Below are positions 1 to 57,976 of a stretch of 64,000 nucleotides of DNA, piece by piece. A program made the position numbers and the translations under genes. The notes beneath the pieces were generated by a model. The model did no database searches. It was not told where the DNA came from and worked only from the letters and a program-made list of their open reading frames with translations. Numbering within the stretch: the stretch's first letter is position 1; each line of letters starts with the position of its first letter. The DNA is from Hysterangium stoloniferum (Eukaryota > Basidiomycota > Agaricomycetes > Hysterangiales > Hysterangiaceae), in contig WHVD01000020.1 in the NCBI GenBank assembly GCA_015178975.1, positions 186,001-250,000 on the forward strand, given 5' to 3'.

Positions 1-3000
1 AGGGAGAAACTTAGATAATGAAATTATATCGGTTTTTCTTTAAAACAAACAAATCATAGCGTGAAAACATAAGGCATAGTTGGAAAAAGGTCGGGTACCG
101 CGTGATAGACTTATAAAGAATTGAGAGGACCGGGTTTGTTCGGATAAGCTTGGTGAAACCCTAAAACGATTTCCGAGGCATTACCGAGCTCTGTAGCTAG
201 GATCCATGAAGTTTCTTCATCTGTACCTTCATAGCCAGCCCATTTGACCAAATAAAGTAATTTGCATGAGTGTCGGCGATTGTCGATTTTTGAGTCTAGG
301 ATCTCTGATATCTCGAATTCGGGTTCCCCATCAATAATCACGGGTGGAGGTGGTGGTTGTATGCGATCGGGTATACTGTTAGGAACACAAGGTTCTAACA
401 TAGATACATGAAATACCGGGTGCACTGCACGCATGTTGTCGGGGAGCCGAAGCGTCCATGAAAGCGTGCCGGCTTGTGCTATAACTTCAAACGGACCTAA
501 ATATTTTTCAGAGAGCTTCTTAGAAGGTCTAGTAGTTCGGAAGAACTCGGCTTTAACGAATACTCGATCTCCGATCTTGAAATCAGGAGGCGGAAGTCGG
601 TTTTTATCCGCAGACCGTTGGTATCGTTCTTGGGCCATTGCGATAGTTTTACGAAGTTCTTGATGTAGCTCGTCAAGGTTGGTAACGAAGTCTTGAGCAC
701 GGGCGGATGCGAGATCGCCTTCCGGGTGGATTGCGATGTTGGGGTTGTAGCCTTTATTTGCGAAGAAAGGTGAAATGCCGGTAGTGGCATTTGGTGCATT
801 GTTATATGCGAATTCAGCTAGCGGTAGTAGTGATTTCCAATTGTCTTGTTGATAGTTGCAATAGACACGGATGTATTGTTCCAAGGTTTGATTCATGCGT
901 TCGGTTTGTCCATCGCCTTCTGGGTGATAGCCTGAAGTGAAATGTAGCTTCATGTCTAGTGCTTTTCCGAGTGACCTAAAGAAGTGAGAAACAAACTCGG
1001 ATCCGCGATCAGATGTGACATGCGACGGAACGCCATGCTTGGAGAATACGTGGGTGACAAATAATTCAGCTAACTGTACAGATGTTATCGTGTCATATGT
1101 TGGAATGAAAATACTTTGCTTTGAGAGCCGATCCACAATAACTAGGATTGCTGTGTGACCTTCGGATGCCGGTAGGTGCTCGATAAAATCCATAGAAATT
1201 GAGTTCCAAGGTTTTTCCAGTATTGGTAATTGTTTGAGTAGGCCATATGGTTTGTGTCACTGTGATTTAGAGCGTAAACACGTAGTACAGGATTTACAAT
1301 AGTGCTTAACAAAATCTCGGATGCCGGGCCATGTATATTCTCTTCTAATGAGTGAGAGGGTCTTATTGAGGCCGAAATGTCCCGAGATTGGGTGGTCGTG
1401 CTTATGTTGTAGGATTCGCAGCCGAAGGGTGTCGGAATCCGGTACATAAATGCGATTGTCAAGTCTAATGAAACCTTGTGAGTCTAATGACCATCAGGGT
1501 TGATCGGGGTCAGACGGGTTATCGAGGTGTGCTTTGGTGACTGGGTCTAATGGAATTGCCGATAGTATATCTTGATGTAACTTTTCGGTATCCATAAGGA
1601 TAACACTTCGCAAGACTGGATGAATGATGTAAGTGGCTCAGATAGATGCGGACAGTTGTTCCGATGAAAACATAGGCTTGAAATTATGCGGGTTAACTGT
1701 GGCGTAGTCGCTACTCCCCTCTTTAGGATAGACGTCCCATCGTCTAGTCATAGCGTCGGGTTTTCCACCAAGGCGGCCGGGGCGGAAACGAATTACCATG
1801 TTGAAAGCAGAGAGGTATTCGGACCATCGAGCTTGTCGATGGGTGAGAAGTTTTGTGGTTGAAAAGTAAACTAAATTTTTGTGGTCTGTAATAACATCTA
1901 CCGGGTGGGCCGAGCCTTCCAAATAGTGTCGCCATGTCTTGAAAGCTTCAAATATTGCAAGTAATTCCTTATCGTGAACATCATAGTTGAGTTCAGGTGC
2001 CAAAAATGTGCGAGACAGAAAAGCTACTGGGTGTACTTCACCATCGGTGTCCAGAATGGACAATATCGCGGCAAGCGCATAGTCCGAAGCATCAGTTTCC
2101 ACGATGAGTTGAACGTCGGGCTTCCAGTGTGACAAAATAGGGGCGGATGTAAACGCACTTTTCAATTCCTGGAATGCCGATCGGCATTCTTCGGAGAAAT
2201 TCCACTGGGTGTCTTTACGAGTAAGATGGGTGAGTGGGACGGTAATTTTTGAGTAGTTGTGAATGAAATGACGATAAAAATTGGCGAAGCCTAGAAAGGA
2301 TTGAATATCCTTAACCTTCCGGGGTTCCGGCCAATCTTGAATGACTTGAATTTTAGAGTCATCCATGCGGAGACCGTCAGGTCCCATCATAAACCCTAAA
2401 TATTCAACTGTGTCGACATCAAAAGAACATTTTTTACCATTTGCAAAAAGACCATGTTTTCAGAGTCTTCGGAGAACTTCACGAATGTGTCCGTCATGAA
2501 GTGTAGGATCTTCGGAGAATATGAGGATGTCGTCTAAATACACAATGACAAAGACGTCGAGGAGGTCGGAAAAGATGTCATTGATAAAACGTTGAAAGAC
2601 CGACGGAGCATTGGTGAGGCCGAAAGGCATTACTAACCATTCAAAGGAGCCATAGCGAGTGCGAAAAGCCGTTTTCCATTCGTCGCCTTCGGCGATCCGA
2701 ACCAAATGATAGGCATGCTTGAGATCTATCTTTGTATAGATTTGGGCCTTCCGAGGGGCATCGAGTAAATCAGAGATTAATGGTAATGGGTACTTGTCTT
2801 TTCGAGTGATCGCATTTAGTCCTCGAAAATCAACGCAAAGTCGAAGGGAACCGTCTTTTTCCGAATGAATAGGACGGGGGCTCCATAAGGAGACTTTGAG
2901 GGTTGGATAAAACCTATAGCCAAATGTTCGTCCAAGAAATCTCGGATAGCCGATAATTCGGACTGCGAGAGAGGATAAACCGGGCCTAGGGGTGGATGTG

Positions 3001-5118
3001 AACCATCTTCAATATCAATTTTCAAATCGTAAGGCCTGTGAGGGGCGAGTCAATCAGCTTTTTGTTGACTGAAGACATCTGCAAATTCATGGTATTTTTC
3101 GGGAACACCTTCTAAATCTGCGATTGGTTCGGTCACCGGGGATGCAAAGCGACCGGTGACTTCGTCAACTTTAAGATTGACTGTAAATGCTCGGGAGCCG
3201 TCCAACTTGATGGCTCTCATAAAAGCTGTGGCATTTATTAGAGAGACGGGCGGCGGAGAGCTCGGATTTGCCACGGGGGCTGGAGGTGCTGTAGAGGCCA
3301 TATTTGCCGAGACAGGTGGAAACGGACCAGTCGTAACGGGCGCTGACGGGGTTCGGAAATGGATACTGCCCAATACCCAATCAATCAACAGATTGTAGCG
3401 GGTGAGCCAGTTATGTCCTAGAACCACGGAGCAGCTCGGGTCCAACTGTGTTACAAAAAACGTAACTGTCTGAAAGGTTCCACACAGGAACCGAAGTTGG
3501 AGTTCACAGGCTTGCGAGATTACGGAGTTTGAGGTACCATCAAAGAGTTGGAGCGGAATCGGATCTATTGCGTAGGTTTTTAACTGATTTTTTCTGGAAA
3601 AACTTGTATCTATAAAACAATGGGTTGAACCTGAATCTATGAGAGCTCGAAATGTGAGGGTCCCGAGAGGTTCCGAGGTAAGATTTATGAACAAGGAATT
3701 AGGATCATACAAGGCGGATGCGTTAAGGTGACAATTTTCCAGTGTGCGAGGAGATTCAACGCAACTCTCCAAATGCACGGAATCCAGAGAGTTGCTTAAT
3801 CTTTTTTCGACTCGACAGCCGGCTTGGCCGGTTGTGAGGTCGTGGCCGTATTAGCTGATCGGGCTTTTGTGGCTTTTGGGCAAGCAGCGACTCGGTGTCT
3901 GGGATCTGCGCACAACAAACAAAGGTTGTTGTCCATTCGGCGTTGCTTTTCCTGTGGTAGGAGCTTGCCATCGGAGCCGAGTTTGCCAGTTAAGTCGGGT
4001 TTGTCTTTGTCTTGAGACTTATTCGACTGTTTTCCCTTGCCTTTTTTGTCGTTAGCCCCTTTGTTTTCGGACTTCTTATCGGAGGTTGAGTTGCCATTGT
4101 TGTTGGTGTTTTGATTACCAGACTTGTTGGCGTTCTTATTGTCTGATGATTTTTTGTCCGAGGGGTTTTCGCGACTAATTTCCGAACGTCATTCCCAGTA
4201 TCGGGCGTCTGCGTTTTGGGCTTTCAGACGCATGAGAGAAAGGGTCTTCGGCTTGCCAGTCTCTCCTTTGGAGACTTCATCTTTGAGGCGAGACGGAAGG
4301 CCGGAGTAAAACTGGTAACGGAGGGCCGAATCGCCCCAGTCACAACACGCGGTGAGGTTGTTGAACTGGACGATGTAATCGGTGATGCGCTGAGTGTCTT
4401 TCATTTTGAGATTAGAAAGCGCGGTTTCGGCATCGCCGGTTTGGTCGTAGGGACCGAAGTTAGTTTCGAGTTCCTCGACAAAGGCATCCCAATCGTGAAG
4501 CCAATCGGGGTCTTCAGAGGTGAGGCCAGAGAATGTGGGTTCAAACCAGGCTGCTGCGGAATCCTTAAGGTATGAAAGTGCGAAGTTTACCTTTCGGTCA
4601 TCCATTGCGAATGCAGCCGGGCGGTCCCAAAAGTTGAATTGACATTGCATAAGAAATGTCGGCAATTTCTTCGGGTTTGAGCCAGTGAATGGCTCGGGTT
4701 TGTTGACTCGGGTTTGCCCAGGTTCCTTTTCCTTGATATTGCTTTTAAGGAATTCGTTAAGGGATCCTAGAGTACCTGAAAACAATTCCCATGTTTGTTC
4801 AGGGTCGAGAGCCGGTTTCTTTTTTGCGGACTTCTTGGAGCCACTAGCCTGAGGTTGGTCGCCATCCTCGGGTTCGTGTTCCGAAACTGGTTGATTGTTA
4901 ATCTCCTCAGTTGCTTCGGGATCGGTTGCTTCAGTTACTTCTTCAGCATCGCCGGTAATCTCCACAAAGCGAGATTCTTCGGAGGTTTCTGGTAGCGGAG
5001 TTCTCTGAGTAGCTCGGGCTGTATACAGAAAAGGAGACTTGAGAGTGGAAGATTCTGCTTCGCCGCTAGGCTTGGCATTTCTTCTCGGAGGCATGATTAA
5101 TGGAAAATGTGAGTGTGA

Positions 5119-5129
5119 AATCAGAATAT
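5119..5129 (-). promoter_or_regulatory. Predicted self-primer binding site, family A
   Basis: Two bases inside the 5' LTR lies AATCAGAATAT on the plus strand. It is an 11-base exact reverse complement of LTR positions 5424-5434. No TGG start typical of a tRNA 3'-end primer site is present. In the Tf1/sushi group the first 11 bases of the transcript fold back to this position as primer, and the arrangement here fits that model. The transcript start itself is inferred. Confidence 0.7.
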
Positions 5130-5131
5130 AC

Positions 5132-5853
5132 TGTTAAGAACTGAAAACTGACTAATGTCGGTGGCCGACAGGGACCGATCGGAAGGACTTGGCTTCAGCT
5201 TATGTGCTGCGCCCTCGCAAATATCTGTAGGATGTCCTTAAATTTCGGGCAGGCGAAGACTAATCCTAATGAGTACCTTTCGGCGTGATACCGATCGGAA
5301 TCAAAGGACAAGTCGAGCGTCGGGCCAAGGGGTCGGGGCTGGGAGTGGGGGAGCGCACGCGAAGGCGGATGGGGGGATTCTTAGTATGAGACTGATACAG
5401 GCGTATGAGGGTATTCTGAGTCAATATTCTGATTGCCTAGTGACTACAACTACAGCAGGTTCATATACAAGTAACAGGCGTCTGGAAAATACTAATGGGG
5501 AGAAGGGCGGAACACGGTATTAACAATAAGCTTGACTAGGAACGGGAAGTTTATGATTAGTTCGGAGGCCGATGATAACCGAGAGCGGGATTACGATAAA
5601 AGGAAATAGTTCAAGGACTACAAATATAGATAGACATATGCGAAACATAAGATTGGATGGATCAACATAATAAAGGGGACGTATCAAAGTTTGACCAGAC
5701 AATACAAGTTATTTTGACGTGGGCGTAAACGGAGTTTGATCTTCACGAAAACATTCGTCAGCTTCGGGGCCGATGGTTTCCGAGAGGATGACTTGAAACG
5801 TTGACAAGTGGCAATAACCTCAGGACCGATAGGGTTGCGACACGGTCGTAACA
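5132..5853 (-). repeat. 5' LTR of family A copy 1
   Basis: This 722-bp LTR starts TGTTAAGAACTG and ends ACGGTCGTAACA on the plus strand. The same ends are found in solo copies at 13318-13930 and 50523-51266 and, inverted, at 46167-46899 and 59809-61182. In element orientation it opens TGTTACGACC and closes TTCTTAACA. It holds ATATTCTGATT at 5424-5434, the complement of the predicted primer site just inside the element at 5119-5129. Confidence 0.93.
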
Positions 5854-6301
5854 CTATTCCATCCTAACCCTTGTTTTGAGTATGGTCAACCCTGCCTTGT
5901 TTCTTGTTCACCTGCTTTGTCTTTTTATCTCACCAGATTAGTAGTGGAATAATCTTTTGTACTATATGGTCAAGTATTTGTATTTACAATCTGATTAGAA
6001 AATCAACTTAGCACCCATCTAGTATTCTATCTACATATTTGTCCTAGTAAACTTTACATGAGTGTATTCCCATAACCCATGGGTCCTCTGACCAAAATAC
6101 AGTGAACTCTTGGAGCCCCAGGTTCCCCATCCCTACCTCTTTGCATAATTCCAGACCCCACATGTCTCCCCTGTTATCCTGTCTGAAATTGGACACAACA
6201 ATTCTGCAAGGGCAACACATAAGATAAAGCCAAGTCCCACCTGTCCCAGAACATCTATGAGTTTTCCCCTGGATGCCCACCTGTAAGCCCTGAGCTTAAT
6301 A
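5854..6301 (+). repeat. Family B 5' LTR, left end missing
   Basis: It matches the family B solo LTR at 51348-51832 from the shared AGTATGGTCAACCCTGC segment onward and ends CTTAATA just before the gag leader. The left end is replaced by the family A LTR. It holds GATTAGAAAAT at 5993-6003; the predicted primer site is 6304-6314. Confidence 0.75.
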
Positions 6302-7071
6302 GTATTTTCTGATCCAATCCCACAGATTGTTTTTCAGTCATGCCATGCCCCCAAGAAAGAAAGCACCTGAACATTTGAATCAACCTGGACCTTCTACTCT
6401 CCAATCTCCACTTGTTCTGTACACCACTCAGACACCCCAAAACCAGCATAATATCATGGATGAATCCCATGTTGAAGAAACCCAGAGGGTTTGGAAAATG
6501 GAGACAAGTCCACAGGCTCTGACAGTGGCAAGAATGCCCCTGATCTAGCCACTATACCATGACCATGCTTCATGGACCCCACTTAGCAAGGACCTTGGCT
6601 AAATTTGAAGATGCAATGATTGAAGAAAGAAAGAATAAAAACCAAGAACCTGCATGATCCAAAGTCAATGCACTGGAACCTTTCACTGGCTTGAATCTCA
6701 ATAAACTGTCAATCTTCCTTATGCAGTGTCATTTTATTTCTGCAACAGACCAGCTGTATTTACCATGGAGGCCTGAAAAGTCAACTATGCACTCTCTTAG
6801 CTCTTGGGATCTGTCTTGGAATGGTTTGATCTGGTATTCAGTGGACTCACCCTGAAGGAGCCAAATTGGCTTCATGACTGGGATGCCTTCATTGAGGAAT
6901 TGGAGATGAATTTTGGTCTGTACAACCCAACCAGAGAAGCTGAGCAGAGCCTCACTAATCTTCATATGAATGTCAATCCAAGTCTAAAAAAGAGTAAGCA
7001 ATCCTCCAGACTCTGTGCAGACTAAGGGTTGCATTACCTCTCCATGCATTCAAGAGTCTGCCCATCTGTCA

Positions 7072-7700
7072 TGAACATACAAGATCAAATTCTTATAATA
7101 TTTACTTGACATTCCTTTGACTTCCAACTCAATTTCCAACTCAACGACCTTTAAACACAAATTCAACATGATATTTGACTACTCTTTGACTTGTCTCAGT
7201 TTGACATCATTGATGATTTTATTCTGATATCATATTATCACCATAGATAGATGATAAATAGCATAAAAGGGGACTGATAGGAATGAGGGAAGTTGCTCAG
7301 AAAACCTGTACCATAATCTGTATCATTACTATTGTATTATCAATTCAACTTCTATTCATAATCTTTTCAACATAATTATTTGTGAGCTTCTGTGTCACAC
7401 TTTATTGATGGGACAAATTCATACTTCATCAAATGAGGCATCTGTACTTGATTTAGTAGAGTATCCCTCAATTGGTATTTGTAAGCCTGGTGGGTTATGA
7501 CATACCAATTACATTATCACAGATGTGCATAGTATCATTTTTAGTTAATCATTTTTTACTTACCATCATCATCATGTATCATACTCACCATTCTCGAGGA
7601 ATACAGTTTGGTCCTATCAATGTCTGGACTGATGCCAATGTAAGGCTGCATTAGACAGCAGCCTTTCAGTATTTGACTTGATCAAGTGAAATCTGATTCA
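7072..7700. repeat. Solo-LTR-type insertion (629 bp) inside family B
   Basis: The insert begins TGAACATAC, ends CTGATTCA and is flanked by TGTCA at 7067-7071 and 7701-7705. Outside the insert the family B sequence rejoins in the order seen in family C (…TCTCAATGCATCTGC). TG...CA ends plus a five-base duplication fit an LTR of an unidentified family. No coding capacity was seen. Confidence 0.75.
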
Positions 7701-8032
7701 TGTCACCATCTCAATGCATCTGCTCTTTCAAACTCTGACTCATTATTTGTACAACTCACTTCTGTTATAATTAAGGACTTAGTCTTGTGTGCCCTTGTAG
7801 ATTCCAGCTTAACCCATTGTTTTGTAGATACAAATTTGGTCATAAAAAAATTCTTGAAGACTTACCTGGTAAATCCAATCTCACTTCAACTCTGTGATTG
7901 TACAAGAAATTCAGTTATCATCCAACCTTGTGACCTAACTATCTGGTTTCTGTGAAGAGCCCTTCAGATATGTTTTTATATGACACAGTTGAACTTAAGT
8001 TGCTCAGTCATCCTAGGACACAACTGGCTCAC

Positions 8033-8501
8033 TGTTAGGATCTACACCTTTTCAGGCCCCTGCAGCTTGTTTTCACCCTGATGACCCCCCAGCAACCTGA
8101 TATCAGTACCCCTGACTATGGCATCACCACTCCCAGCATCCTGTTACTTGGTTTACTATATGTAGATTACCCTTTTAATCATTCCATTCTCCCTCTATCC
8201 CATCACTTGCTTCTTTTGATTCATTTGTCTTCTTACCTCTGTGATTGGCCTTCTGATGACCTGTCTCATTTTAGGATATAACTCTCATCTTGTATGATAT
8301 AGTTCTTTAGTTTGAATATCAACTTAAGTTCCAAGCTAAGTGTGGACTTTTAGTCTATTATGTACTACTTCCTTGTTTTGAAATACTGGAGCACCCCAAC
8401 AGTTTGTGTGAGGGTGAAGCTCCACTTGTCCTGTAGAACTTTCTAACCCTATGGACCTTCAGAGCCCATCTTCTTTATCTCTAGAAACTTAGACTTTGAC
8501 A
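8033..8501. repeat. Solo-LTR-type insertion (469 bp) inside family B protease
   Basis: The insert begins TGTTAGGATC, ends CTTTGACA and is flanked by CTCAC at 8028-8032 and 8502-8506. It splits the protease segment between GHNW and TDWVLG. A five-base duplication and TG...CA ends indicate an LTR of an unidentified family. Confidence 0.8.
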
Positions 8502-8580
8502 CTCACCCAATACATGTGTTGACTGACTGGGTGTTGGGCAGTTTACCTTCTGGACTCCCATGGCACCTGACACAACTATA

Positions 8581-9590
8581 TCAAAAATCAAGTTGAAATA
8601 TTGTCGAAAATATTGTCGGAACTGATCTTGCATGATAATGACAGCAGGGCACAGTAGATAATAAATTACTACATACATCACAATGAACATAACATTTTCA
8701 GATAAACCACTGTACAATATCTTTGGCAAGCATCGCAAAAATCCCCCACTTTTGTAGCACCATTCAATTCCAAAGGTATAACACCAAGCCCTAGAACATG
8801 TGCTGGGTCACCTTCCAGTAGAAAATCACTCCATATTTATGCATTTTCCTGTAGCAAGAGTGGCCAGCTGGTGACCTTTTCGACCAAACGAACCTGGCAT
8901 GCCAGACAACCAATGGCGAGTCTTCGGGAAGTTGTTATTTGGCACCCTCGTCTCAATCGTCGTAAGTCCCACCTTTATTAAAATATTACTATCAAATTCT
9001 AATATGTATGTGATTCAACATGTGGTTGTTGCACATCTATACTCAAATAGAGAGAACAAACAAGTGTTTCACCTAATGTGGCATGCAGCAACTTTGCTCC
9101 ACAGTCTTCATATTGATATCTAACATCTGTAAAAATTCGGGTCCGACCACACCACCCACACACCTTCTGGGTTACGGTAGCGTCTCCTAGTTGGAGGAAG
9201 GTGAGAAATAGAGGGTACAGAGACAATGTGCCTGAACTGAACATGGACTGTTGATAACGCTTTGGCCAAGCAGCCAATCCTTCCAACGACTGCAAGAAGC
9301 ATACATTCGTGACTTCATTGGAAAAAGAGGTGAGTTTTGGGAAGCTCACAACCAAACATTCCAATATGAATCCAGCACGGTCAAAAGAGACTATAGACTC
9401 CATCAATCTAATCCACATCAGGAAAATTTTTTCTGTCCTTATATACCTTGAATGCACTTGAAAAATGTTTAAGTAGGTTTAAGGGGAAATTTTGGTAAGG
9501 TTGACCTGGCTTGTGGCAAGGGCTTTGGATCTTAAAACTACCTTGAAAAGCCCTGGAATGCCACTTACCCCAAGGAAATAGACGTGCATG
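8581..9590. other. No recognisable gene
   Basis: A short open stretch starting ATGGCGAGTC near 8912 meets a GTAAGT donor-like site after 16 codons, but no matching downstream exon was found. A 152-codon minus-strand frame at 8999-9457 has no recognisable domain and no good start context. I assign no gene here. Confidence 0.5.
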
Positions 9591-9599
9591 TAAGGAGTG

Positions 9600-9722
9600 T
9601 AAGGAAAATACCTTACAACTGAGGGGAGTATAAGGAAGATACCTTATTGCCAAGGATAGAATAAGGGAGGTACCTTACCCCCAAGGGAGCATAAGGAAGA
9701 TACCTTCCGGTCAAAAGGTGAA
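9600..9722. repeat. 31-bp tandem array with palindromic core, 4 units
   Basis: TAAGG...ACCTT(A) cores start at 9600, 9631, 9662 and 9692, giving spacings of 31, 31 and 30 bases. Each core reads TAAGG-A-A/G-N-TACCTTA and is close to self-complementary. The linkers between units are less conserved. It could be a protein-binding array or the remains of an LTR enhancer; function is unknown. Confidence 0.8.
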
Positions 9723-9984
9723 TAACAGTGCTTGTATATTAGTGATGTTTAATAATTTATTTTTCATTCACATAACACTACAACCATGCCCAATATAAAT
9801 ATGACTTCAGAGGTGGCTGCCAGTGATACCCAACCTGAATAACCATTGTACTACTAGGTAACTGCACCAATACCAATAGTGATGCCACCAGTGGTAATGG
9901 TGCTAGGTCTTTTTGGATTAACAGAAAATTTCATAATGTAGTGCATGCGTTTTTCATAGACCTACTATGTGTCAAATATGGTGA

Positions 9985-10720
9985 AATCAGCTGTGATCAA
10001 TTGTCAGCTGGATTCCAATCCCATTAAGAGACATCCCACCTCGTTCTGAAAGCTTGACCAGTGCCAATAGTCCATTGTGCTGAAAGGAGTCATCAGTGTC
10101 CTTCAAAAGTATGACAATGTCGGAAATGGCAATGGCGGTTTGAAATTTGTCCCGAACCCAAGTCAGCACACTTACCAAACACATGGAGAGTAATGACCAC
10201 CTGTGCAACTCAGAGAGCCAATTTCCCTTCACGCACTCTAAGGGTTGAAGCTGGGTAAGGATTTGTCCCAGTGATGCTAAAGTGTAGTGATCCCAGGAAT
10301 AATATACACAATTGCAGTTCAAAAGTCAGCCATGGTCAAAAGGGCAGGCCAAAACTCAACTGTGGTCAGATGTCACTTGGATCCCATCCCATTATGTGGC
10401 ACTGTACCTAGTTCAGAAAGCTTGACCAGTGGTAATTCACTATTTGATTGAACAGTTGCATTGGAGTCTCTCAAAAGCATGACAATGTTGGGCACAATGG
10501 CAGGTCGAAATTTGGCTGTGATCAAATGTCAGCCAGATTTCCAAACCATTATGATGTACTGCACCTTGTTTTGAGAGCTTGGTCAGGGCTGATACTCCAT
10601 CTGAGCCAATGAGGTAGGAAGTGTACTTGAAAAGTGCAACTAGTCTGGAATGCAGAAAAAATTCGCCTGTGGTCAAATGTCAGCTGGGTTCCAATCCCAT
10701 TCACTGCCACTCCATTTACT
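9985..10720. repeat. Degenerate ~160-bp tandem repeats
   Basis: A segment beginning CTGTG(A/G)TCAAATGTCAGC starts at 9991, 10360, 10516 and 10677. Each of the first three is followed by the same order of words (CCAATCCCATTA..., GAAAGCTTGACCAG..., AAAGTATGACAATG). The spacing is about 160 bases except for a double-length gap after the first unit. Divergence between units is high. No reading frame runs through them. Confidence 0.65.
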
Positions 10721-11860
10721 CAAATTTACTCAATCATTTCATGCTCCATCCTTCACCAGTGCAGTTTACTGATGCATGCAGATCATCATGGTCTTTGAAC
10801 AAGACCCAATTGGCATAGCAATATTTCAACAACCTGCAAGCCAAAAATGAGGTACAATAATACTGATATCCCAAATCACATACCAATAAATCATAACAAA
10901 ATCAGTTTCTTTTACAACAACTTCATAAACCTTCCTCTCTCCCGACACTGTGTTAGAATTTTCCATGAATGATGATGTGAGCATCGTATGGAAGTAGTAA
11001 GATCGACGGATGAGTATGTCAGAATGTGCATATATATGTCACTTGTGCACTTTTGGCTGCATGGTGAAACTAAATCCGGAGGTTTCTGAAGAGGAGCAAT
11101 GGCTATTAGGACTAGTGGGTACCAAAGGAGATGGTGGGGTAGAGGCAGATGGAGATCTCTTTTCAAAACAGATAGGGATGACAAACAGACTTAAAAACAA
11201 AAGGGTTCATGATGAGTATATCATATTATACCCATTTGAATGGTGTTTATTGCCATTGTTTGACTGTGATGATGGTGATGAAGTGGGACTTGGTAGAGAA
11301 GGATAATTATTTAAAGTGGAGATTACTTACCATGTAGCGGAGCTTTAATTATAACAAAAATTCAACCATAAGTTGACCAATCTCATTCCAATCGAATGAC
11401 CGGGGAGCTATCTGAACGTTATTAGGTCATGTTTGGTGAGTGTCACTCTCAGCAGCCTGCCCAGGGCCTCCTACCCACCTCTGAAACTCTTCTGCTATGC
11501 ATTACAGCTCCCTAAGACTCTAATAGTCAAAAGCATTTCCTTTGGCAGAGATTTCCTATCCCTCCAGCTCACAATACACCTGTTGGGCCACCATCCTTAG
11601 GCTTGACAACTCTGGAACATATCTTCGGCACCTCCGTCAGCCAAGTCATCGCAGTGTTATTCGGAGCATATTCTTATGTGCAAGGGATTACATCAAACGA
11701 CACATGAGGTGAGGACAATTGACAGCGTGCAATTTAAAAACTGCTGATCTTATGCAGCTTCACGCAGTGGCATCACATGGTGATTCTGACAAAACACTGT
11801 CCAGCCAGGGTAACTGGTGGCTCTCTGGGATGTGCTCGCATTAAGACTCCACCACCTTTA
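10721..11860. other. No recognisable gene
   Basis: Open frames here (for example 11010-11306 plus and 10912-11184 minus) are short, overlap each other on opposite strands and show no domain. No repeat relation to the rest of the window was noticed. Confidence 0.45.
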
Positions 11861-11962
11861 TGGGCAGGGTCCATAACCTGTTGAATGTGAGGAGTCATCG
11901 TGTTAATATATTCCCTACTCACGTAGTTCTTCACAGCTCACCACATGGATCAAAAAAAAAAG

Positions 11963-12185
11963 GTGAGTATCTTTTGAGTCAACCATTCATTCCTTTCACT
12001 TATTGTTCAAAACTACAGGGAAACCAACTAACAAGGAACAAAAATGAAGTGAGTATCGTTTAAGTTGACCCTTCATTCCTTTCACTTATTATTCAAAACT
12101 ACAGGAGCAGTCAATGATCATGAATGAAGGGTAAGCATCCTTTGTCTTTACCATCCCTTCCTTTTCTTATAATACATCTTCTCAG
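11963..12185 (+). other. Three consecutive intron-like units (two tandemly duplicated)
   Basis: Three GT...AG intervals occur at 11963-12018, 12049-12104 and 12131-12185, of 56, 56 and 55 bases. The first two open GTGAGTATC, close AACTACAG and are near-identical throughout, so one 86-base exon-intron unit was duplicated. The intervening exon-like pieces are 30 and 26 bases long. The flanking coding sequence was not recognised, so this may be a gene remnant rather than a live gene. Confidence 0.5.
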
Positions 12186-12319
12186 ACATGTCAGGTGCAT
12201 ATCAAACAAGACAGGGGTGCGACAGCTAAGTGGCATATGTCATCAATCCTGGTCTCGCATTATGCTGACCACTTGTTCAGGTAGTGGGTTAAAATCCCAC
12301 AAAGCCACCAGGGAGTTTT

Positions 12320-12823
12320 AGTGTGTATTGTGCTTGGCGTGGAGCCCCACAGTATCCACATTGGGTCTGTGTCACTGCATTTCTTCCTGGCCACGTCCAC
12401 ACTGGGCCATCTTGGGCCATGGCTTCTTTGGAGCCTACTACCAATGTTTCCTCCCTGACCTCCCCACCTCCTGCCCCTGCAGCACAGAAGACATCCAGTC
12501 CCACCTCCACATCCTTTCCGAGTGCCACCTTCACGAGGAACACTGCCACACCCTCCGCACTGCCTCTCAAGACATCACTCCCCATTATCCTCGGCACCCA
12601 CAAGGGCCTTGAAGCCCTAGCTGAGTTCATTGTCGCCTCCGATGCTTTCCAGAAAGCATAACCGGCCACCATCCCTGCCCTCCCCTTCCCTACATTTGAC
12701 CCTCTTGCCCATACCAATCAGCTATATACATACATATCCTGCCGCCCCCACCTACCATTAGGGTACTTTATGTATCTTAGTTATACAATGTGGTATATAA
12801 ATGTATTTGAAAAAAAAAAAAAA
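12320..12823 (+). mobile_element. LINE (non-LTR) 3' end with poly(A)
   Basis: The stretch encodes, in two overlapping frames, the C-terminal zinc-binding tail typical of fungal LINE polymerases: a Cys/His segment near 12470-12540 (CPCSTEDIQSHLHILSEC) and the following ILGTHKGLEALAEFI near 12585-12640. A stop, about 150 bases of 3' sequence and a run of 14 A (12810-12823) follow. The 5' part is missing, as in most LINE copies, and the coding tail carries at least one frameshift. No clear target duplication was found. An alternative, a host gene with a Cys-rich tail, is unlikely given the poly(A). Confidence 0.65.
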
Positions 12824-13317
12824 GATGGAGGCACGTGATATATGTCTTTGAGTGATATATGTCTTTGACAATGCTCAGTCTTTGACTGTGTGTGTCTGTA
12901 GATGTTTTGATTGGTCTGGTTTTCACGGTCTAGACCTGGGTGAACATCCTTCGTACTTTTTTGTACTTACATACCTTATGCATGCTGATGAGTCCTGAAC
13001 TTCTACCTTAGACCTGTACTTGAGCGCTCTTACATATCAAATATACATTATTTGCCATTTTCTTCTTACTCCGGCTTGGAGCCCTTGAAATCAGTATGTT
13101 GCCTTAAATTACACGAATTGTACTTGCAGTAAAAATTTTCAAGGGCATTTCAAGTGCGAAATGCTGGCTTATTCACCTTACCTTAAATATGATTAAGTGC
13201 AATAAGGGAGATCAAGTACCGAAAACATTTTCCTGATTAGCCTCTCTTATGAGAAAGTCAGTCCCATCTTAATCTATATGACTCGCAAGGCACCAATTAT
13301 CTAGAACTGTTAAGAAC
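12824..13317. other. No recognisable gene
   Basis: The sequence between the LINE tail and the solo LTR has a short direct repeat (GTGATATATGTCTTTGA twice, 12834-12868) and no supported coding region. Confidence 0.5.
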
Positions 13318-13930
13318 TGGAAACTGACTAATGTCGGTGGCCGACAGGGACCAATCGGAAGGACTTGGCTTCAGCTTATGTGCTGCGCCCTCGCAAATAT
13401 CCGTAGGATGTCCTTAAATTTCGGGCGGGCGAAGACTAATCCTAGTGAGTACCTTTCGGCGTGATACCGATCAGAATCGAAGGACAAGTCGAGCGTCAGG
13501 CCAAGGGGTCGGGGCCAGGAGTGGGCGAGCGCATGCGAAGGCGGATGGGGGATTCTTAGTATGAGACTGATACAGGCGTATGAGGGTATTCTGAGTCGAT
13601 ATTCTGATTGCCTAGTAACTACAACTATAGCGGGTTCATATACAAGTAACAGGCGTCTGGAAAATACTAATGGGGAGAAGGGCGGAACACAGTATTAACA
13701 ATAAGCTTGACTAGGAACGGGAAGTTTATGATTAGTTCGATCAACATAATAAAGGGGACGTATCAAAGTTTGACCAGACAATACGAGTTGTTTTGATGTG
13801 GGCGTAAACGGAGTTTGATCTTCGCGAAAACATTCGTCAGCTTCGGGGCCGATGGTTTCCGAGAGGGTGACTTGTCGTTGACAAGTGGCGATAACCTCGG
13901 GACCGATAGGGTTGCGACACGGTCGTAACA
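13318..13930 (-). repeat. Solo LTR, family A, with 5-bp target duplication
   Basis: It has the same ends as the LTR at 5132-5853 and is flanked by AGAAC at 13313-13317 and 13931-13935. It is 613 bp because it lacks about 95 internal bases present in the other copy. The perfect duplication and high similarity suggest a fairly recent insertion followed by LTR-LTR recombination. Confidence 0.95.
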
Positions 13931-13979
13931 AGAACTATATGTGTTAGGACATTATTATCGTTGACCAAGCCAGATCGCC

Positions 13980-14129
13980 TGTACGCTGCATATCCGCCTA
14001 AAATTGGGTGGGTGGAGACTGCTCAGTTGTTCTGCAAGGTCACGGTTCTGCCGTGTTCAGTCATTTTATTTCAAATCATTTTTATTTACAGTATTACACT
14101 AGTACTGGTATGGTAATGTTACACGTAGG
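13980..14129 (-). other. 3' flank of the HNH gene, shared with the pseudogene
   Basis: The bases downstream of the stop (GGTCACGGTTCTGCC..., TATTACACTAGTACTGG) recur at 25615-25700 behind the dead copy. The duplicated unit therefore includes the 3' untranslated region. Confidence 0.7.
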
Positions 14130-15509
14130 TCAAAACGTAGGCACACCTTCCCTCCACTGCTCCATACGCTGAGAGTTCTCTTGTACCTTCTTGTCATGGC
14201 GTTCTCTCACAGCCTGTGAATTTCCCCAAAAGAACAACACCACGTCGTCCTCATCCCACTTTGCCTGGCCCTCCGAATCCACCCAATCTCCTTCTCCAGT
14301 CGCAGCTCCAGCAGTGGCATTCCGAGCACCAGATCTACCAGCAGCCCGGCCTGCATCACGCTTGTTAATTGCAGTCATTCTATCGTAAGTAGTCCTCGAC
14401 GATGCCGATGGTGCTGGGACAGGCACGGGTGGGCGAGGAGGCTGGGCGAGCTTTCGAAGGGTCTCTGTGCCATTGCCCCACCATTTGACGGCTGCAGCAC
14501 CATAATTGTAGTGTAGCAACAAGTCAGATGGCTTTAGTTTCTTGGTACCTTTCATGAAAGCGGCATCTCTATTGTCTGGGAGTAATTCTTGTGTGGCCGG
14601 GTCCGGGTTTAGCCATTGCAGTGTATATCGGCTATTTGTCGGATATGTGATACTTGTCGTCATATTGGGTCGTTTGTTGCGAGGGGGGATGTCTGAGGTG
14701 CTAAGATAGCGGTTGGGAGTCTTGATTATATCGGGGAGGTTGAGATGAAACAATGACAAAGAGATTGACAAATATGACGAACCTTCACGATGGCTATGCG
14801 GCGTGAATCAAATACGTAGTGTGCCGTGGGAGTTGCGAACACGCCATTGCGAATATCATTAATGTCGTCGAGATCTCCCACATCCTCGCTGTAGTTTGGT
14901 CGATTGCCTACAATAAGCTGGAACCACTGAAATAGCCGAAGGGAGATGGTCAGATGTTTCCCAAGCACAAGATTGTAGAACTTACTTTGGAACCTCGACT
15001 AAAGGGAATGATATGTAAACCGGCTCCAATGTCTGGAGCACCTCCTGTCCACACACAAAAACCATCACGCTCCAACAAATTATTGCGAAATTCATTGCGA
15101 CTCTGCGTGGGTTCTGAAGGCATGCTTGTCCTCATCTTGATGACCTCGAGGTCAACAGCCTGGTAGGAATCTTTGTTGGATAGAGTACAAGTGTTATGTG
15201 TGCACGCATGACAGTAACAGCATCCGTAAAAAACGTACTTGTATCCGTGATATAATAGTAGATCCCCCCACTGTCCAGATCTCCATCAGTACTAATGCTA
15301 TCACCGTCAGATTCGAGTGCCAGACTGCCTTCAACACCGAGGATAGACCATGCAAGGTAGCAAAGATACTTCCGGGGTTTCAAACATAAAGATTCAATCG
15401 TGTCTAACGGTATTTGGAGATAAAAGGGTGAGTCTTCATCATCTAGAAGAACCAACCCAACAAAGTGATCAGGAATAGAAAGGGTGTTGGATCCAGCAGA
15501 CGAAGACAT
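14130..15509 (-). CDS. HNH-nuclease-domain protein (four exons, 396 aa, looks whole)
   Basis: Exons on the minus strand are 15239-15509, 14986-15170, 14783-14926 and 14130-14720. The introns (68, 59 and 62 bp) are all GT...AG, and phases agree at every junction. The ATG at 15509 is the only start upstream of the conserved region. Residues 125-200 form the HNH_2-type fold seen in many agaric proteins: RDGFCVWTGG, then His143 (LHIIPFS), Asn179 (IRNG) and His188 (AHYVFD), the H-N-H metal and catalytic set. The N-terminal 100 residues resemble the family's leader domain (IPLDTIESLCLKPRKYLCYLAW). The C-terminal 190 residues are low-complexity, rich in Ala, Gly and Pro. The family is common in basidiomycetes; its substrate is not established, so nuclease activity is inferred from motifs. 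A dead paralogue lies at 25610-28866. Confidence 0.88.
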
Positions 15510-16155
15510 CTACGTAGAAAGTTGTTGACGATGCCGCGAACAAACAAAATTGTAATGTTTGTATGTCACGTGACACCGGGCAGCGTAGAAACGGCACAGT
15601 TTTAACCCATACCTCCATATACCCAACGGTGGGATTTTCATATTGAAGAATTGTACAATACTATCAACAGGCCCGCTTAGGGCCTTATAAGCACGGGGAG
15701 ACACGCTGAAATGTAGCAATGGGTGGCCTTATTTCCCCCATACAAATGCATAGCCGATCAATTCCAGTGATTGCCATTACAATGAAATTTACTGGACAGC
15801 TGATCTGATCAATATAAGATAAGATTAATCAAAGGTTCATATTTCTTGCACTAATACATGGAATAAATTTGAAAAACTCAAATAAAATATATTAACTTTG
15901 TTGTTTTGCATGATCTGGCCTATTCAACAATGTGTTCTGTTGGAGATGCAAAAGTGCTTCTGCCACACTCAATGACCTTGTAAGGTTTGAATGGGAAATA
16001 TGTTTTAGTTGTTCTGTGTTGGAATTTACATCATGGATAACAGATTCTGAAGATCAGATCTATTTTTACGACAACAAAGGAGTTATGTCACTCACCCTTT
16101 CCTTTGTTCTACTGCTTATTGTTCTCAGTGTTTTATTGTTCTACCAAAGATATAT
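15510..16155. other. HNH promoter region and unassigned sequence
   Basis: The first ~130 bases upstream of the HNH start are homologous to 28870-28970 upstream of the dead copy and probably hold the promoter; no TATA box was convincing. The segment 15763-15835 recurs at about 51275-51347. No further gene is supported; a 76-codon plus-strand frame near 15932 starts only at GTG. Confidence 0.5.
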
Positions 16156-16157
16156 AC

Positions 16158-17060
16158 AGTAGGCAACAAAACCATTCAGATGTTTCTTTGTTTTGAAAAG
16201 ATCCTTTAGCATTAGCCCAAAATAAATTCTAAAAATTCTGAATAAATTATGATAGATGCTCTAATATCATTAAATGTTGATTACATAACCATGATGTCAT
16301 ATGTCCATTTATGGCCATGCAATAATACCATGAATACAGCCTGTACACCCATCACCCCTCTAACTGAGCCCCATTCCCATTTTAGCTTATGACCTGTCAC
16401 AATTCAGACTCTGCTCCCACTCCATTCCCATTATGGTTTCATGACCTGTCACAATTCAGACTCTGCTCTGTTCCATCCCATTCCTAACAACAAATTTGGT
16501 GTTTACTATTCTCATTTTATGTTTTGCTAGTTTCGTTTCATTATTACTGGATTTGGTATGTTATTCATTCCACGGCCTATATTCTGGCAGATGTTGTACA
16601 TACAATCCAGTCAGAAAATCAGCTTAGATTCCCCCCCAGTAATCTAGTACATTTTCCACTCTAAACCCATTTTTGAATTACACCACTCTCACTAGTGGGA
16701 GCCCACGGGCTCCGACACATCTATCTCTCTTATTTATCCCAACTCCCCAACCTTTCGACCCATGACCTCTGACCTATGACCCCTCGACCCACGAACTCTG
16801 CCTGGTCTTCCCAGGTTTCCCGTCCCCCTATTTGAAATTGGACAACACGATCTCGCAAGGGTGCAGCCTATAAGCTGAAGCCAAGCTCTACTGGCTTTCC
16901 TGCAGGTTTCTCCGGAAACCCACCATGTATGTACCCTAACAAGTGGAATGGGAGAAGAAACCAAAGGAGGTGTGTCAGAACTTGATAGAAAGTATGCCTA
17001 GAAGAGTAGAAGCTGTAATTAAGGCCAAGGGTATACCAAGTATATTGGGTTTATAAAATA
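16158..17060 (+). mobile_element. Tc1/mariner remnant interrupted by a family C LTR piece
   Basis: The left end at TA|CAGTAGGCAACAAAACC (16158) looks like a Tc1-type terminus. The C-terminal end of a Tc1 transposase is readable at about 16942-17055 (LIESMPRRVEAVIKAKG). A truncated family C LTR (about 16330-16941) separates the two pieces, and most of the transposase is gone. Confidence 0.65.
16330..16941 (+). repeat. Truncated family C LTR
   Basis: It is homologous to 17690-18283 (…CTAACTGAGCCCC... to ...TACCCTAACA). Its 5' portion is missing. It sits inside Tc1 sequence. Confidence 0.75.
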
Positions 17061-17265
17061 CAGGCAGCAAAACTATTTGGATGTTAAGGAGTGCACGAGG
17101 AGCTTATCAGAGGGTTTCTGGAGAAACCTGTGGGAAAGCCAGTAGGACTTGGCTTCAGCTTTTAGGCTGTGCCCTTGCGAGATCGTGTTGTCCAATTTCA
17201 GATGGGCAGACAGGAATCCCGGGGAGTCCAGGGTGTTGGTTGGTTGAGAGGTGTGATGTATTAGC
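17061..17265. repeat. Second Tc1-like terminus followed by an inverted family C LTR piece
   Basis: At 17061 a second CAGGCAGCAAAACTATTTGG terminus appears in the same orientation as the one at 16158. From about 17100 to 17260 a piece of family C LTR runs in the opposite orientation to the LTR at 17437 (GGACTTGGCTTCAGC... CAATTTCAGA). Confidence 0.6.
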
Positions 17266-17436
17266 CTTATTTTAATACTATCTTCTGAAAAAGGAGTCCA
17301 ATGCTCTATCAAAATGTGCAAATACTCAATTCACTGCAAGGTAAAATAATTTAAGTATTTGATATTAATCAGTGGCAGCCTGAATAGACTTAGAACCCCT
17401 GAAGTCAAGAGTTTACTTGAATATATGCACCCAACT

Positions 17437-18283
17437 TGTTACGACCAGAACTCCCGCTGGACTCCGGGCACCAACCTACATATATGCACCCACACTCTAG
17501 TTATGTCACTTTCAGTCAACTGGAATACCCACTGGGACCCAGACATCAATCCTGTCCACACCGACCTTTGTTGTCTTATGAACCAGTCACTGGAATACCT
17601 GCCGGAACCTGCACACATCATCTCCTGTCTATCTCCAACCCTCTCCCACACATCAGTCACCAGACCTCGCTCAGAATACCCATCAGCTGTCTAACTGAGC
17701 CCCGTTCCTGTTATGGACATATGACCTGTCACAATTTGGACTCCACTCCCACCCCGTTCCCGTTTACGGTCTAATGACCTGTCACATTTCGGACTCCGCT
17801 CCACTCCATTCCGTTCCTAACACCAAATCTGGTGTTTACTTATCTCGTTTTATGTTTGCTAGTTTATATTTCATTATTACTGGATTTGGTAATGCATACA
17901 CTCAGCAGTCTATATAAAATAGCTAATGTTGTACATACAATCCAGTCAGAAAATTAGATTAGATTTCCCACTCTAAACTCCTCTCTGAGAAATCCGCTTC
18001 ACTCTCATCGGAGCCCATGGGCTCTGACTCTCCTACCGCTTGACCTCTGACTTTATTGTCACTCGACCTCTGACTCTTCACCTCTTGACCTCCGTGGCTT
18101 TCCCACCATCAGTCTCACCAACTCCCGACCTACTATCTGTCTCCCTGGACTCCCCAGGTTCCCCGTCCACCTGTCTGAAATTGGACGACACGATCTCATG
18201 AGGGTGCAGCCTATAACCTGAAGCCAAGTCCTACTGACGTTCCCGTGGGTTCCCGGAACCCTCCGTGTATGCACCACTTAACA
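17437..18283 (+). repeat. Family C 5' LTR
   Basis: It begins TGTTACGACCAG and ends CACTTAACA, 847 bp. It contains AGTCAGAAAAT at 17944-17954, exactly complementary to ATTTTCTGACT at 18286-18296 just after the LTR (predicted self-primer site). Other family C LTRs are at 27696-28660 and 40928-41732 (inverted), with pieces at 16330-16941 and 17100-17260. Confidence 0.9.
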
Positions 18284-18285
18284 GT

Positions 18286-18296
18286 ATTTTCTGACT
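18286..18296 (+). promoter_or_regulatory. Predicted self-primer binding site, family C
   Basis: ATTTTCTGACT follows the LTR after a two-base GT spacer and is an 11-base reverse complement of LTR positions 17944-17954. The layout equals that of families A, B and G with a different sequence. Confidence 0.7.
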
Positions 18297-20739
18297 AAGA
18301 CTCACAGATTGTCAACATGCCACCAAAAAGAAAAGTACCTACATATACACATTACTCTGCATTCCCCGCTTACTTTGTACACCAGTCAGGCACTCACAAA
18401 CCAGTGGGATGCCATGGATGAAGCCTGCATCGAAGAAATCCCAAAAAGCCCGGATACTTCCGACCATGAGGACAAGTCCACAGCCCCTGACAAGGGCAAG
18501 GGTGTCGAACAAAACACAGCTTCAGATCAACTGCACATGGGGGATCCTACTTCTGAATTTTTAGCAGGCACTATAGATAAATTTATGAAGTACCTGCTTG
18601 ATGAATGAAAGAAGAGAGAACAAGAACTCCACAGTCAAAAGTCAATGCTCCGGAACCCTTCACGGGTTCCAACCCCAACAAACCTTCCACCTTCCTCATG
18701 CAATGTCACTTCAATTTCTGTGATCGATCCGCCGCATTTTCCACGGACTCCCGAAAAGTCAACTACGCACTTTCATACCTCTTGGGATCCGCATTGAAAT
18801 GGTTCAAACTGGCTTTTAGCGGACTTTCTGAGGATGAGCCACTCTGGCTTGAAGATTGGGATGCATTTGTTGAGGAGCTAGAAACCAACTTCGGCCCATA
18901 TGACCCTACCGGAGAAGCCAAGAATAGTCTGACCAATCTTCATATGAAGGACAACCAGTGCATCATGGATTACATTGTCCAATTCAATAATCTCGCCACG
19001 CATTGTCAGTGGGGCGATCCCGCTCTCCACCACCAATTCTATGCTGGTCTGCCCTCCCACCTTAAAGGATGAAGTCTCTAAAGGAGAAGATGGCAAGCCA
19101 AAAACACTGTCCCGTATGTGCCTCAAGGCTCAAAATGCAGATGCACACTATTGGGAACGTCGCGCAGAAGTTGCCTGTGAGACTTCCACAGACAAGGTCA
19201 AGTCCATGGCCAATAAAAACAACAACAACACTCCATCCACCAGCAACCAAAATTCCATGCAATCTGACAAGAAGAATGATAAAAAGTCTCCTAACAACAA
19301 CAACAACAATAACAAAGGTCAACAGTCCGGCAAGCAAACTAGAAAACCCGACCTTACTGGCAAGCTTGGAGCTGATGGCAAATTGACCCCACAGGAAAGA
19401 CAATGTTGTATGGACAACAACCTCTGTTTCTTGTGCAGAAAACCTGGTTATCAAGTTCTGGAATGTCCGTTGGTGAAAGCAAACTCTGCAAAAGGTCGAA
19501 CAGCCAAAGCATCCTCCATGGAAGCTCTGTCGAAGGACAAACCGGCTTCTGACTAAAAAAAAGAGTAAGCAACCCCACGGACTCCACATGGGTTGGGGGT
19601 TGAATTACCTCTCTGCGCATTCATGAGTCTACTTGTCTCAATGCATCCACTCATTTGAACTCTGACTCGTTTTTTATTAAACTTATGTCTAATATGATCC
19701 CAAAATTTGTTTTCTCAGCACTTATAGATTCCGGTTCAACCCACTGTTTTTTAGATACAAAATTCATGCAAAATAATCTGTTGCCAACTTATCCAATCAA
19801 TCCAGTCGGACTCTGGCTCTTTGATGGCACAAGCAATTTGGTTATCACCCAAGCTTGCAATTTATCCATCAAGTTCCCCTGTGGAACATCTCAATTGGTC
19901 ACTTTCTATGTGACCCAGTTAGACTCAAGTTGCTCGGTTGTCCTAGGACATAACTGGCTTACCTGCTACAATCCATTGATTCACTGGGTAGCTAACAGTA
20001 TAATTTTCCAGACACCCACAGTGCCCAAGTTAACTGCGTGTGACACGGCCTCCATGGCACCTGCAGCTTCGGTAGCTCCTGTGATCCCCACGGCCATCTC
20101 ATCACCTCTGGCCATTTTGGCACCCACAGCCTTCCCAGCACCTGCAGCTTCAGTAGCCCCTGTGATCCCTATGGCACCCATAGCTTCCCTGGACCCCATG
20201 GCACCTCCATCTATTTCTCTCATTAATGCTGCAGCATTTATTAGGGCTACAAAAATGAATGGATCCCAGGCATTCACTATCAATTTGAAAATTAATGAAG
20301 CAACCAGTCATTTTTCAATTCCTGTATCCACATATGAGCAAACAGCTGATCTAGAAGGTGTCCTGGAGAAATATCATGACTTTTGTGGATGTTTTTAGTA
20401 AGTGAAAAGCTGACCAGCTTCCGCCCCACAGAGATTACAACCTAAAAATCGACCTCGAAGATGGCACCCAGCCACCCCTTGGACATATTTACCTGCTTTC
20501 CTCCATGGAACTTTCCACAATTTGTGATTTCCTGGATGAACATTTGTCCATAGGTTTTATCAGACCCTCAAAATATCCTTTTGGAGCACCTGTTCTGTTT
20601 GTCAAGAAAAAGGATGGATCTCTTAGACTTTGTGTTGATTTCAGAGGACTCAATGCTGTTACAAAAAAGGATAAGTATCCACTTCCACTCATTTCTGACT
20701 TGCTTGATGCTCCACAGAATGCCCGGATTTATGTATATC

Positions 20740-21090
20740 TTCAAAACAGTGGAGTATTATGGGATGGACAGGGAAAGGTTTGTCTTCCAGCAGGACAATG
20801 ACCCTAAACACACTTGCAAGTTGGCCAAGGATTGGTTCAAGGACCATCAGGTGGAGGTTTTAGACTGGCCTGCACAGTCTCCAGACCTGAATCCAATAGA
20901 ACACTTATGGTGGGAGTTGAAGAGAAGGCTTGGAACATACCCTGAGGCACCCAAGAGCATATTGGAGCTCTGGGAGAGAGTGGAGGTGGAATGGGAGGTA
21001 TTCCAAGGGAGAAATGCCTTGAATTGATCAAGAGCATGCCTAGAAGGGTTGCTGCAGTACTAAAGGCCAAGGGGTACAATAAATACTGAA
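20740..21090 (+). pseudogene. Tc1-type DDE transposase, C-terminal fragment
   Basis: The readable protein piece [18 protein letters not shown], then WPAQSPDLNPIEHLWWELKR, is the second catalytic Asp region and the following DDE/D block of Tc1/mariner transposases (DDE_3 superfamily), which cut and rejoin TIR ends. The tail LIKSMPRRVAAVLKAKG continues in another frame to about 21090. The N-terminal DNA-binding half and first catalytic Asp are missing; the piece begins directly at the break in the family C reverse transcriptase. It is not active. Confidence 0.85.
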
Positions 21091-40795: not shown

Positions 40796-40806
40796 AGATC
40801 TGATAT
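40796..40806 (-). promoter_or_regulatory. Predicted self-primer binding site, family G
   Basis: AGATCTGATAT (plus strand) lies two bases inside the G LTR and is the exact reverse complement of LTR positions 41859-41869, again 11 bases. Confidence 0.7.
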
Positions 40807-51274: not shown

Positions 51275-52014
51275 AACCATTTCAGTGATTGCCTCTACAA
51301 TGAAATTCACCAGACTGATCAATATAAGATTAAATAATCAAAGGTTCTGTCCCTGAGTCTGTTTAATATGCATTCATTCATTTATGTTTTTATGTCCCCT
51401 GTACTTGTTCCTATTCTGTCTTGATCCTTATCCTTAGTATGGTCAACCCTGCATCATCTTGTTTTCCCATTTCATCTTCTTGTCTTGCTGCATTAGTAGT
51501 CCAATATCCATTAGTTCTATATAATCTTGGATCTGTTTGTACTTCAATCTGATCAGAAAATCAACTTAGTATCCACCTAGTTCCTTACCTTATTTACTAA
51601 GCTTGATAAGTACTTGTTTGTCTCAACTTGCACCAGGGTATTCTCAGAGCCCTCAGGTTTCCCAGCTCTTCACTGTGTATTCCTGGACCCCACAGCTTTC
51701 CTGTACTTACCTGTTTGAAGTTGGACCTGACTCATGTGAGGGTGCAGCCCATATGTTGAAGCCAAGTCCTACCTGTCCCTACAACATCCTTGGGTTTCCC
51801 CAGATATCTGCCCATAAGTCCTGAGCTTAACAAGACAGTTGAATATGCTGTTTGTCATTGGGGACCCAATAACATGAATCATGGCTGGATTCATTACAGC
51901 TCCATCATGGGTTATCTGTGTGTTGGCAATCTACACCAGTCATTTGAGTTTGAGTTTGAGTCTAAGTTTGGTCACTCCTGGTGACTTTTGTGCCTCTCTA
52001 TCATCCATTCTAAC
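51275..52014. repeat. Mosaic of repeat fragments with a family B solo LTR
   Basis: In order: 51275-51347 matches 15763-15835; 51348-51832 is a family B LTR (ends GAGCTTAACA, contains GATCAGAAAAT at 51551-51561); 51835-51900 matches 34185-34250 of the hypothetical gene; 51905-52014 matches the LTR of the Copia-type element at 57815-59346, in element orientation. The target duplication of the B LTR is not evident. Confidence 0.75.
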
Positions 52015-57814: not shown

Positions 57815-57976
57815 TGTTGGAATAGTAGATAGAAGGACACAGAAGTCACCAGAAGTGACCAAACTCAGACTCAGACTCAAACTCGAATGACCGGTGGTGG
57901 TAGATTGCCAACACGCAGATAGCGCTACGGTAAGTACATGTGGGTACATATGGGTCCAAACCACACACAACGAACA
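57815..57976 (-). repeat. 3' LTR of the Copia-type element
   Basis: TGTTGGAATAG...CAACGAACA on the plus strand. In element orientation it is preceded by purine-rich GGTGGGAG, which is repeated three more times within the next 130 bases. Confidence 0.93.

Follow-up and report, generated by a model that had tools for sequence, protein, structure and literature searches.

Here we describe a stretch of 64,000 nucleotides (nt) from the basidiomycete Hysterangium stoloniferum (contig WHVD01000020.1, positions 186,001 to 250,000 of the forward strand, hereafter the window), in which members of four families of long terminal repeat (LTR) retrotransposons, A, B, C and G, carry an 11-nt site beside the 5′ LTR that pairs with an 11-nt site inside that LTR. 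An earlier note on this DNA had listed nine such 11-mers, all of which are present at their coordinates, and had proposed from them that the four families prime reverse transcription with the first 11 bases of their own transcripts. The pairs of A, C and G are exact reverse complements, and the B site has one mismatch to its own LTR and an exact partner in another LTR, both as the note had given. Its placement of the downstream site two bases from the LTR end also stands, but the site lies on the internal side, outside the 5′ LTR: in element orientation the order is LTR ending in TTAACA (TTAATA in B), GT and the 11-nt site, which is the normal place of a primer-binding site (PBS). Families A and G are on the minus strand, and their PBS is therefore the site of lower coordinates. 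The sites and the repeats that hold them are as follows.

5119–5129, minus strand: family A PBS, 11 nt, with GT at 5130–5131; exact reverse complement of 5424–5434
5132–5853, minus strand: family A 5′ LTR, TG..CA, with 19 differences to the 3′ LTR over 726 aligned nt
5424–5434, minus strand: family A self-primer site, the putative first 11 nt of the transcript, from its pairing with the PBS and from a TATA and a CA start in copies of the same type
5464–5467, minus strand: family A putative TATA, about 33 nt before the presumed start, placed by the offset in sister copies
5993–6003, plus strand: family B primer site, within the LTR, pairing with the B PBS at all but one base
6304–6314, plus strand: family B PBS, after ..TTAATA and GT
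17944–17954, plus strand: family C primer site, pairing with the C PBS
18286–18296, plus strand: family C PBS, exact reverse complement of the C primer site
40796–40806, minus strand: family G PBS, exact reverse complement of the G primer site
41859–41869, minus strand: family G primer site, pairing with the G PBS
40928–41734 (ends approximate), strand not assigned: a different LTR, about 807 nt long, lying inside the G LTR and interrupting it
51551–51561, plus strand: B-type primer site of a separate LTR, matching the B PBS exactly, with similarity to the B LTR over 51411–51581 and 51634–51830

The two G sites are 1063 nt apart in the window because the other LTR sits between them. The order of sites is uninterrupted in a second G-type LTR (47634–48196), and among genome copies with the G PBS the spacing is 242–257 nt in 16 of 18.

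The whole genome (111 Mb) was searched for CTTAACAGT alone, the next 11 bases being left free, which gave 2656 places against 1068 for the reversed pattern. One hundred listed places, all on contig C1, were read; junctions with less than 350 nt upstream, too little DNA downstream or a repeated flank were dropped here and in the second survey, partners were sought within about 790 nt upstream, and 11-mers lying 11–44 nt further on served as controls. Outside the window, these listed matches gave an exact partner at 24 of 100 distinct junctions and at none of 400 controls, and a 10/11 partner at 8 of the 100 against 6 of the 400. With the five junctions of the window added (two being the reported A and C), exact partners were found at 26/105 junctions and 0/420 controls, the arithmetic expectation for one 11-mer against about 790 nt being some 2 in 10,000 under equal base use. 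Many other CTTAACAGT junctions resemble, as judged by eye, unrelated repeats or LTR ends that run into host DNA. One repeat ending in ..GAAATACCAGAGCACCTTAACAGT or similar is followed by TTGTAYRAGGG-like sites at L003, L015, L028, L039, L040, L070, L080, L085 and L104; these loci have no partner of at least 10/11, and the repeat looks like an unrelated one that has the CTTAACAGT word in common. A recurrent 9/11 match between TTGTAYRAGGG-like sites and CCTTCATATAA-like partners was set aside, since 9/11 is reached in 47 of 420 controls and the pyrimidine-purine start described below is lacking.

When a degenerate PBS motif was searched for in turn, 943 places matched it and 13 its control, and 40 more loci were taken from the 100 listed. 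Among 80 motif junctions drawn from the matches listed, 51 have an exact partner, 14 a partner at 10/11 and 15 a lower one, compared with 0/240 exact and 1/240 at 10/11 in the controls. Chance pairing is thus rejected, as the controls of both surveys contain no exact match. The 51 exact copies fall into at least nine pair types in this one genome, named here by their PBS: ATATTCTGATT (19 copies), ATATCAGATCT (15) and ATTTTCTGACT (8); ATTTTCTGATC, ATTTTCTGACC and ATATTTGAACT, with two copies each; and ATATTAGAACT, AGATTGAAACT and ATTTTTGAACT, with one each. This bears out the view that the paired sequences differ among families while the pairing is retained. The duplex also has sharp ends and a preferred offset. 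When 161 junctions were tried at offsets 0–13, an exact partner turned up for 51 at offset 2, no other offset giving more than 3, and pairing continues past primer base 11 in 0/51 exact copies and past base 1 in 3/51. In 60/64 copies, the LTR partner starts 188–399 nt upstream of where the LTR ends.

Priming by a host transfer RNA (tRNA) is the commonest mode for LTR elements, and on this general ground the elements could be tRNA-primed, with the 11-mer match an accident or a by-product of inverted repeats. The contrast between junctions and controls in the first survey speaks against it, and so does the fact that nine types each match their own LTR, for which one tRNA cannot account. TGG, the partner of the tRNA CCA end, is absent from the first 8 nt past the LTR in all 80 motif junctions (a count that concerns this triplet, the host tRNAs themselves not being compared) and occurs within 20 nt in a single one. 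We therefore reject tRNA priming, which seems to us scarcely credible for these elements.

The earlier note had proposed a test of covariation between the two sites, which was run here. The partner was placed by LTR alignment with the 11-mer masked, so that complementarity did not drive its choice. This placed 58 of the 80 junctions; among the 22 left unplaced, the direct search had scored 10 at 11/11 and 2 at 10/11. The placed partners comprised 40 exact ones, 12 that mismatch at a single base, one that does so at two bases, and 5 with only 3–6 matches, some of which are probably junctions beside an LTR of another family, or shifted alignments. The five were kept in the test, which used 22 distinct rows. 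Pairing holds in 87.6% of their cells. The score for covariation, 0.477, is reached by none of 500 shuffles (0.219 ± 0.027), and sliding the sites lowers it to 0.105 or less. At pair 9, the 245 junctions found in the whole genome at A-like spacing divide into 43 with A:T, 0 crossed and, by subtraction, 202 with T:A, these counts being of copies and not of independent events. The outcome favours the earlier note, which would have been refuted by sites that vary independently. Several pair types differ by one step and yet match on both sides.

The signals around the LTR site were examined in the 64 copies that pair at 10/11 or better and have enough upstream DNA, and played no part in the choice of these copies. 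In 60/64 copies, a TATA begins 29–36 nt upstream of the LTR site's first base, compared with 177/5576 background windows, and the step from −1 to +1 is pyrimidine-purine in all 64. Together, the two signals likely put the transcript start at the first primer base. In this they agree with the earlier note, which had transcripts begin at these points of the LTR, as far as promoter signals can indicate a start.

Single-strand RNA folds running from the primer to past the PBS were computed for 18 of the 51 exact copies. The predicted probability of the primer/PBS duplex is 0.51–0.98 in 14 of the 18; such values add little, because a perfect 11-nt match raises them by itself. No shared flanking duplex of the three-duplex "pretzel" structure was established in the 18 predicted folds. 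RNA structures of 5′ leaders are known to act in several ways, and the duplex predicted in most folded copies would also suit a pairing that is real but serves RNA packaging, dimerisation or a long-range fold, another primer being used. However, the duplex starts at the first base predicted from the TATA, is exactly 11 nt long and has its partner at the PBS place and at one offset, as in Tf1; we consider such a role very unlikely to be the explanation.

It seems very probable, instead, that these elements self-prime in the manner of the Tf1/sushi group, with the first 11 nt of their own RNA. The pairing, the covariation and the TATA and start context support this for all four families, as the earlier note had held, although we infer the transcript start, the cleavage and the priming alike from the DNA sequence. 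The first base of the 11-mer, which lies within the LTR and about 33 nt past the TATA box, would be the start of transcription, and the first 11 nt of the RNA would fold back onto the PBS two bases beyond the 5′ LTR and form a duplex with it. The RNase H of the element would then cut after base 11, presumably as it does in Tf1, and the released 11-mer would prime minus-strand DNA. With less confidence, we suggest that the attached primer is retained and itself copied to form the new PBS, which would keep the two sites matched automatically.

Several results weigh against self-priming or limit its reach. In the upstream DNA first examined, 15 of the 80 motif junctions reach only 9/11 or less. 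A longer upstream look found an exact partner for two of them (L032, at 1212 nt, and the G element of the window, at 1061 nt), and the other 13, for which the look covered only about 800 nt of upstream DNA, are still without one. The PBS-like sites AGATTAAAACT (two copies, L124 and L147) and ATTTTCAAACT (one copy, L094) have no partner within the 800 nt examined; possibly they are further pair types with longer LTRs. Two of the five covariation measures are not extreme: the number of pairs changed on both sides (8) is equalled or exceeded in 36/500 shuffles, and that of further pair types (16) in 134/500. Three family C copies have a predicted duplex probability of 0.01, 0.15 and 0.30, respectively, and the single ATTTTTGAACT copy has one of 0.00. 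Lastly, a Tcn1-type element of a spikemoss is described as having evidence of neither tRNA priming nor self-priming (PMC2864245), and therefore membership of the clade alone is no proof of mechanism.

As to the mechanism itself, the accounts cited here place it as already known for the Tf1/sushi clade. In Tf1 of Schizosaccharomyces pombe, the 11-nt self-primer is described as pairing with the PBS and being cut off between bases 11 and 12 (PMC7175516), and the element as having a chromodomain and a PBS downstream of the 5′ LTR (PMC10085805). Self-priming is called a common feature of the Tf1/sushi group (PMC10085805), has been proposed for Tj1 (PMC4600332) and Tcn1 (PMC7175516) and is predicted for most plant elements of the Tcn1 clade (PMC6317226). 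The elements described here are like Tf1 in the 11-nt self-primer/PBS pairing and, in family A, in matches to a Tf2-1-type SH3 domain and a chromodomain; they are unlike it in sequence and in having nine exact primer/PBS versions in one genome. They have in common with the Tf1/sushi group as a whole (chromoviruses of Fungi/Vertebrates such as Tj1, Tosmo1-3, Tcry1 and Tcn1), for which self-priming is reported, a PBS that can pair with 11 nt of the LTR where the RNA presumably starts. Self-priming is also predicted or proposed for the TAR lineage of copia elements and for Houba/Osr-1 in plants (PMC6317226), which in contrast to the present elements belong to Ty1/copia. Judging by titles and abstract openings, we found no survey of multiple self-priming types in one genome. 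What is new here, then, is the scale within a single genome, that is, the number of matched types, together with a hint that rewriting of the PBS from the primer keeps the pairs matched.

How the two sites stay matched can be read in two ways. The earlier note had spoken of compensating changes; the sites do change in step, but selection acting stepwise is not required for this. If the primer is copied into the new PBS, one change in the LTR rewrites the PBS in a single cycle. We tentatively put forward, as a real possibility short of a firm conclusion, that the primer/PBS pair is a self-copying word, in which a mutation of the LTR or a shift of the start site rewrites the element's own PBS in one step. 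According to the title of a 2006 paper on Tf1, the self primer is not removed. If the self-copying reading is true, new primer types appear one step at a time and need no compensating mutations, and the genome is a record of at least nine such words.

The alternative is that the elements self-prime but that selection for compensating mutations, and not copying of the primer, keeps the sites in step. Pairing is required under selection and copying alike, and family B supplies what favours selection. Among 24 places with B-like spacing, primer base 1 is G and PBS base 11 is C at 14; at 6, A faces C, a base-1 mismatch that tells against the copying of primers; and the remaining 4 start with A and, by exclusion, end in T. 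Among the mismatched copies sampled, L097 and L146 are mutual nearest neighbours at 9.9% and could represent an inherited half-step, and the nearest copy to L117 (L110, at 29.7%) also has the base-1 mismatch. Among eight sampled B copies, L110 is itself nearest to an exact copy (16%), and L117, L142 and the B element of the window are 30–39% from anything sampled.

Against selection, the base-1 mismatches resemble CpG decay. The B primer is preceded by C in 5 of 6 mismatched copies and by T in 13 of 14 matched ones, giving CA or TG, the two products expected if an ancestral CG at the start had decayed; the window is CpG-poor, with an observed/expected ratio of 0.62. A base copied from the cap, or a start that is off by one, was considered for these mismatches and set aside, CpG decay explaining them better. 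In the other families, ten mismatched copies were compared (three of A, five of G and two of C), and the copy closest to each is an exact-pair one, that of L076 being 23% away, and the types one step apart with both sides matched point the same way. The two AGATCTAATAT copies, L119 and L131, are not nearest to each other, and this change therefore probably arose twice. From these comparisons, the mismatches in A, C and G would fit rewriting of the PBS better than inherited half-steps, B being less clear. All told, pairs seem to be perfect when a copy inserts and to decay later, as would be expected if the primer is copied into the PBS. Selection for compensating mutations is in our view a doubtful explanation, if one that deserves to be taken seriously.

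Hundreds of copies with nine exact matched words in one genome provide a large natural experiment on self-priming, in which a transcript start is indicated from sequence alone and in which selection and copying become testable by counting inherited mismatches. The findings also suggest that tools that seek only a tRNA-type PBS will miss such elements.

With regard to classification, the four families look like chromodomain Ty3/Gypsy elements of the Tf1/sushi type, a placement that draws on domains and homology. Family A has matches to gag, protease, reverse transcriptase (RT), RNase H, integrase, SH3_Tf2-1 and chromodomain over three frames, as follows.

4192–5133, minus strand: family A gag open frame (PF03732, 9e-13)
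3050–3850, minus strand: family A protease piece (PF08284, 4.7e-08)
1638–3008, minus strand: family A RT and RNase H pieces in two open frames (PF00078, 2.3e-30; PF17917, 2.5e-34)
111–1256, minus strand: family A integrase core, SH3_Tf2-1 and chromodomain (PF00665, 3.9e-11; PF24626, 1.3e-19; PF00385, 1.6e-05)

These pieces stand in the order gag, protease, RT, RNase H and integrase, and those of G likewise. Translated A pieces match gag and protease of B (49–58% identity), gag, protease and part of RT of C (49–81%) and most of G (40–81%), and the four families therefore belong together. An integrase with a Tf2-1-type SH3 domain and a C-terminal chromodomain is found in family A only (PF24626, PF00385), and G is homologous to residues 9–364 of the A integrase piece (67%). 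Two points count against the placement: the chromodomain match of A (PF00385) scores 25.2 bits, barely over the cut-off of 25.1, and the translated A pieces gave no integrase match in B or C.

Element A probably inserted in the 5′ LTR of element B (window 5132–5853 and 5854–6301; L047), and if so A would be the younger element. Similarity to the B LTR starts directly at the end of A, and a short stretch past the other end of A resembles, with a gap, the DNA upstream of the same B-type LTR. The 3′ LTR of A lies outside the window (L047, aligned stretch 7573–8298) and retains the same primer 11-mer, and the target duplication, read by eye from the flanks, is 5 nt, AATAG. Primer/PBS mismatches number one in B and none in A. 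Elsewhere in the genome, L018, L069 and L132, with A-type LTR and PBS, are 0.4–0.9% apart, the nearest neighbours of most other A copies being at 3–14%; this closeness points to recent activity of family A.

The window holds further mobile-element remains. A further A-like internal region occupies 42159–44891 on the plus strand, beside G and on the opposite strand to it, in several frames, with 74–90% identity to the A proteins where matched. A DDE_3 transposase match at 20554–21027 (plus strand, 3.4e-10) overlaps or follows the RT piece of C (20496–20735) and suggests a DNA transposon nested in element C. Finally, a Copia-type gag (PF14223, 2.5e-12) lies in 57814–59553, together with a direct repeat of 163 nt (57814–57976 and 59184–59346, 98%).

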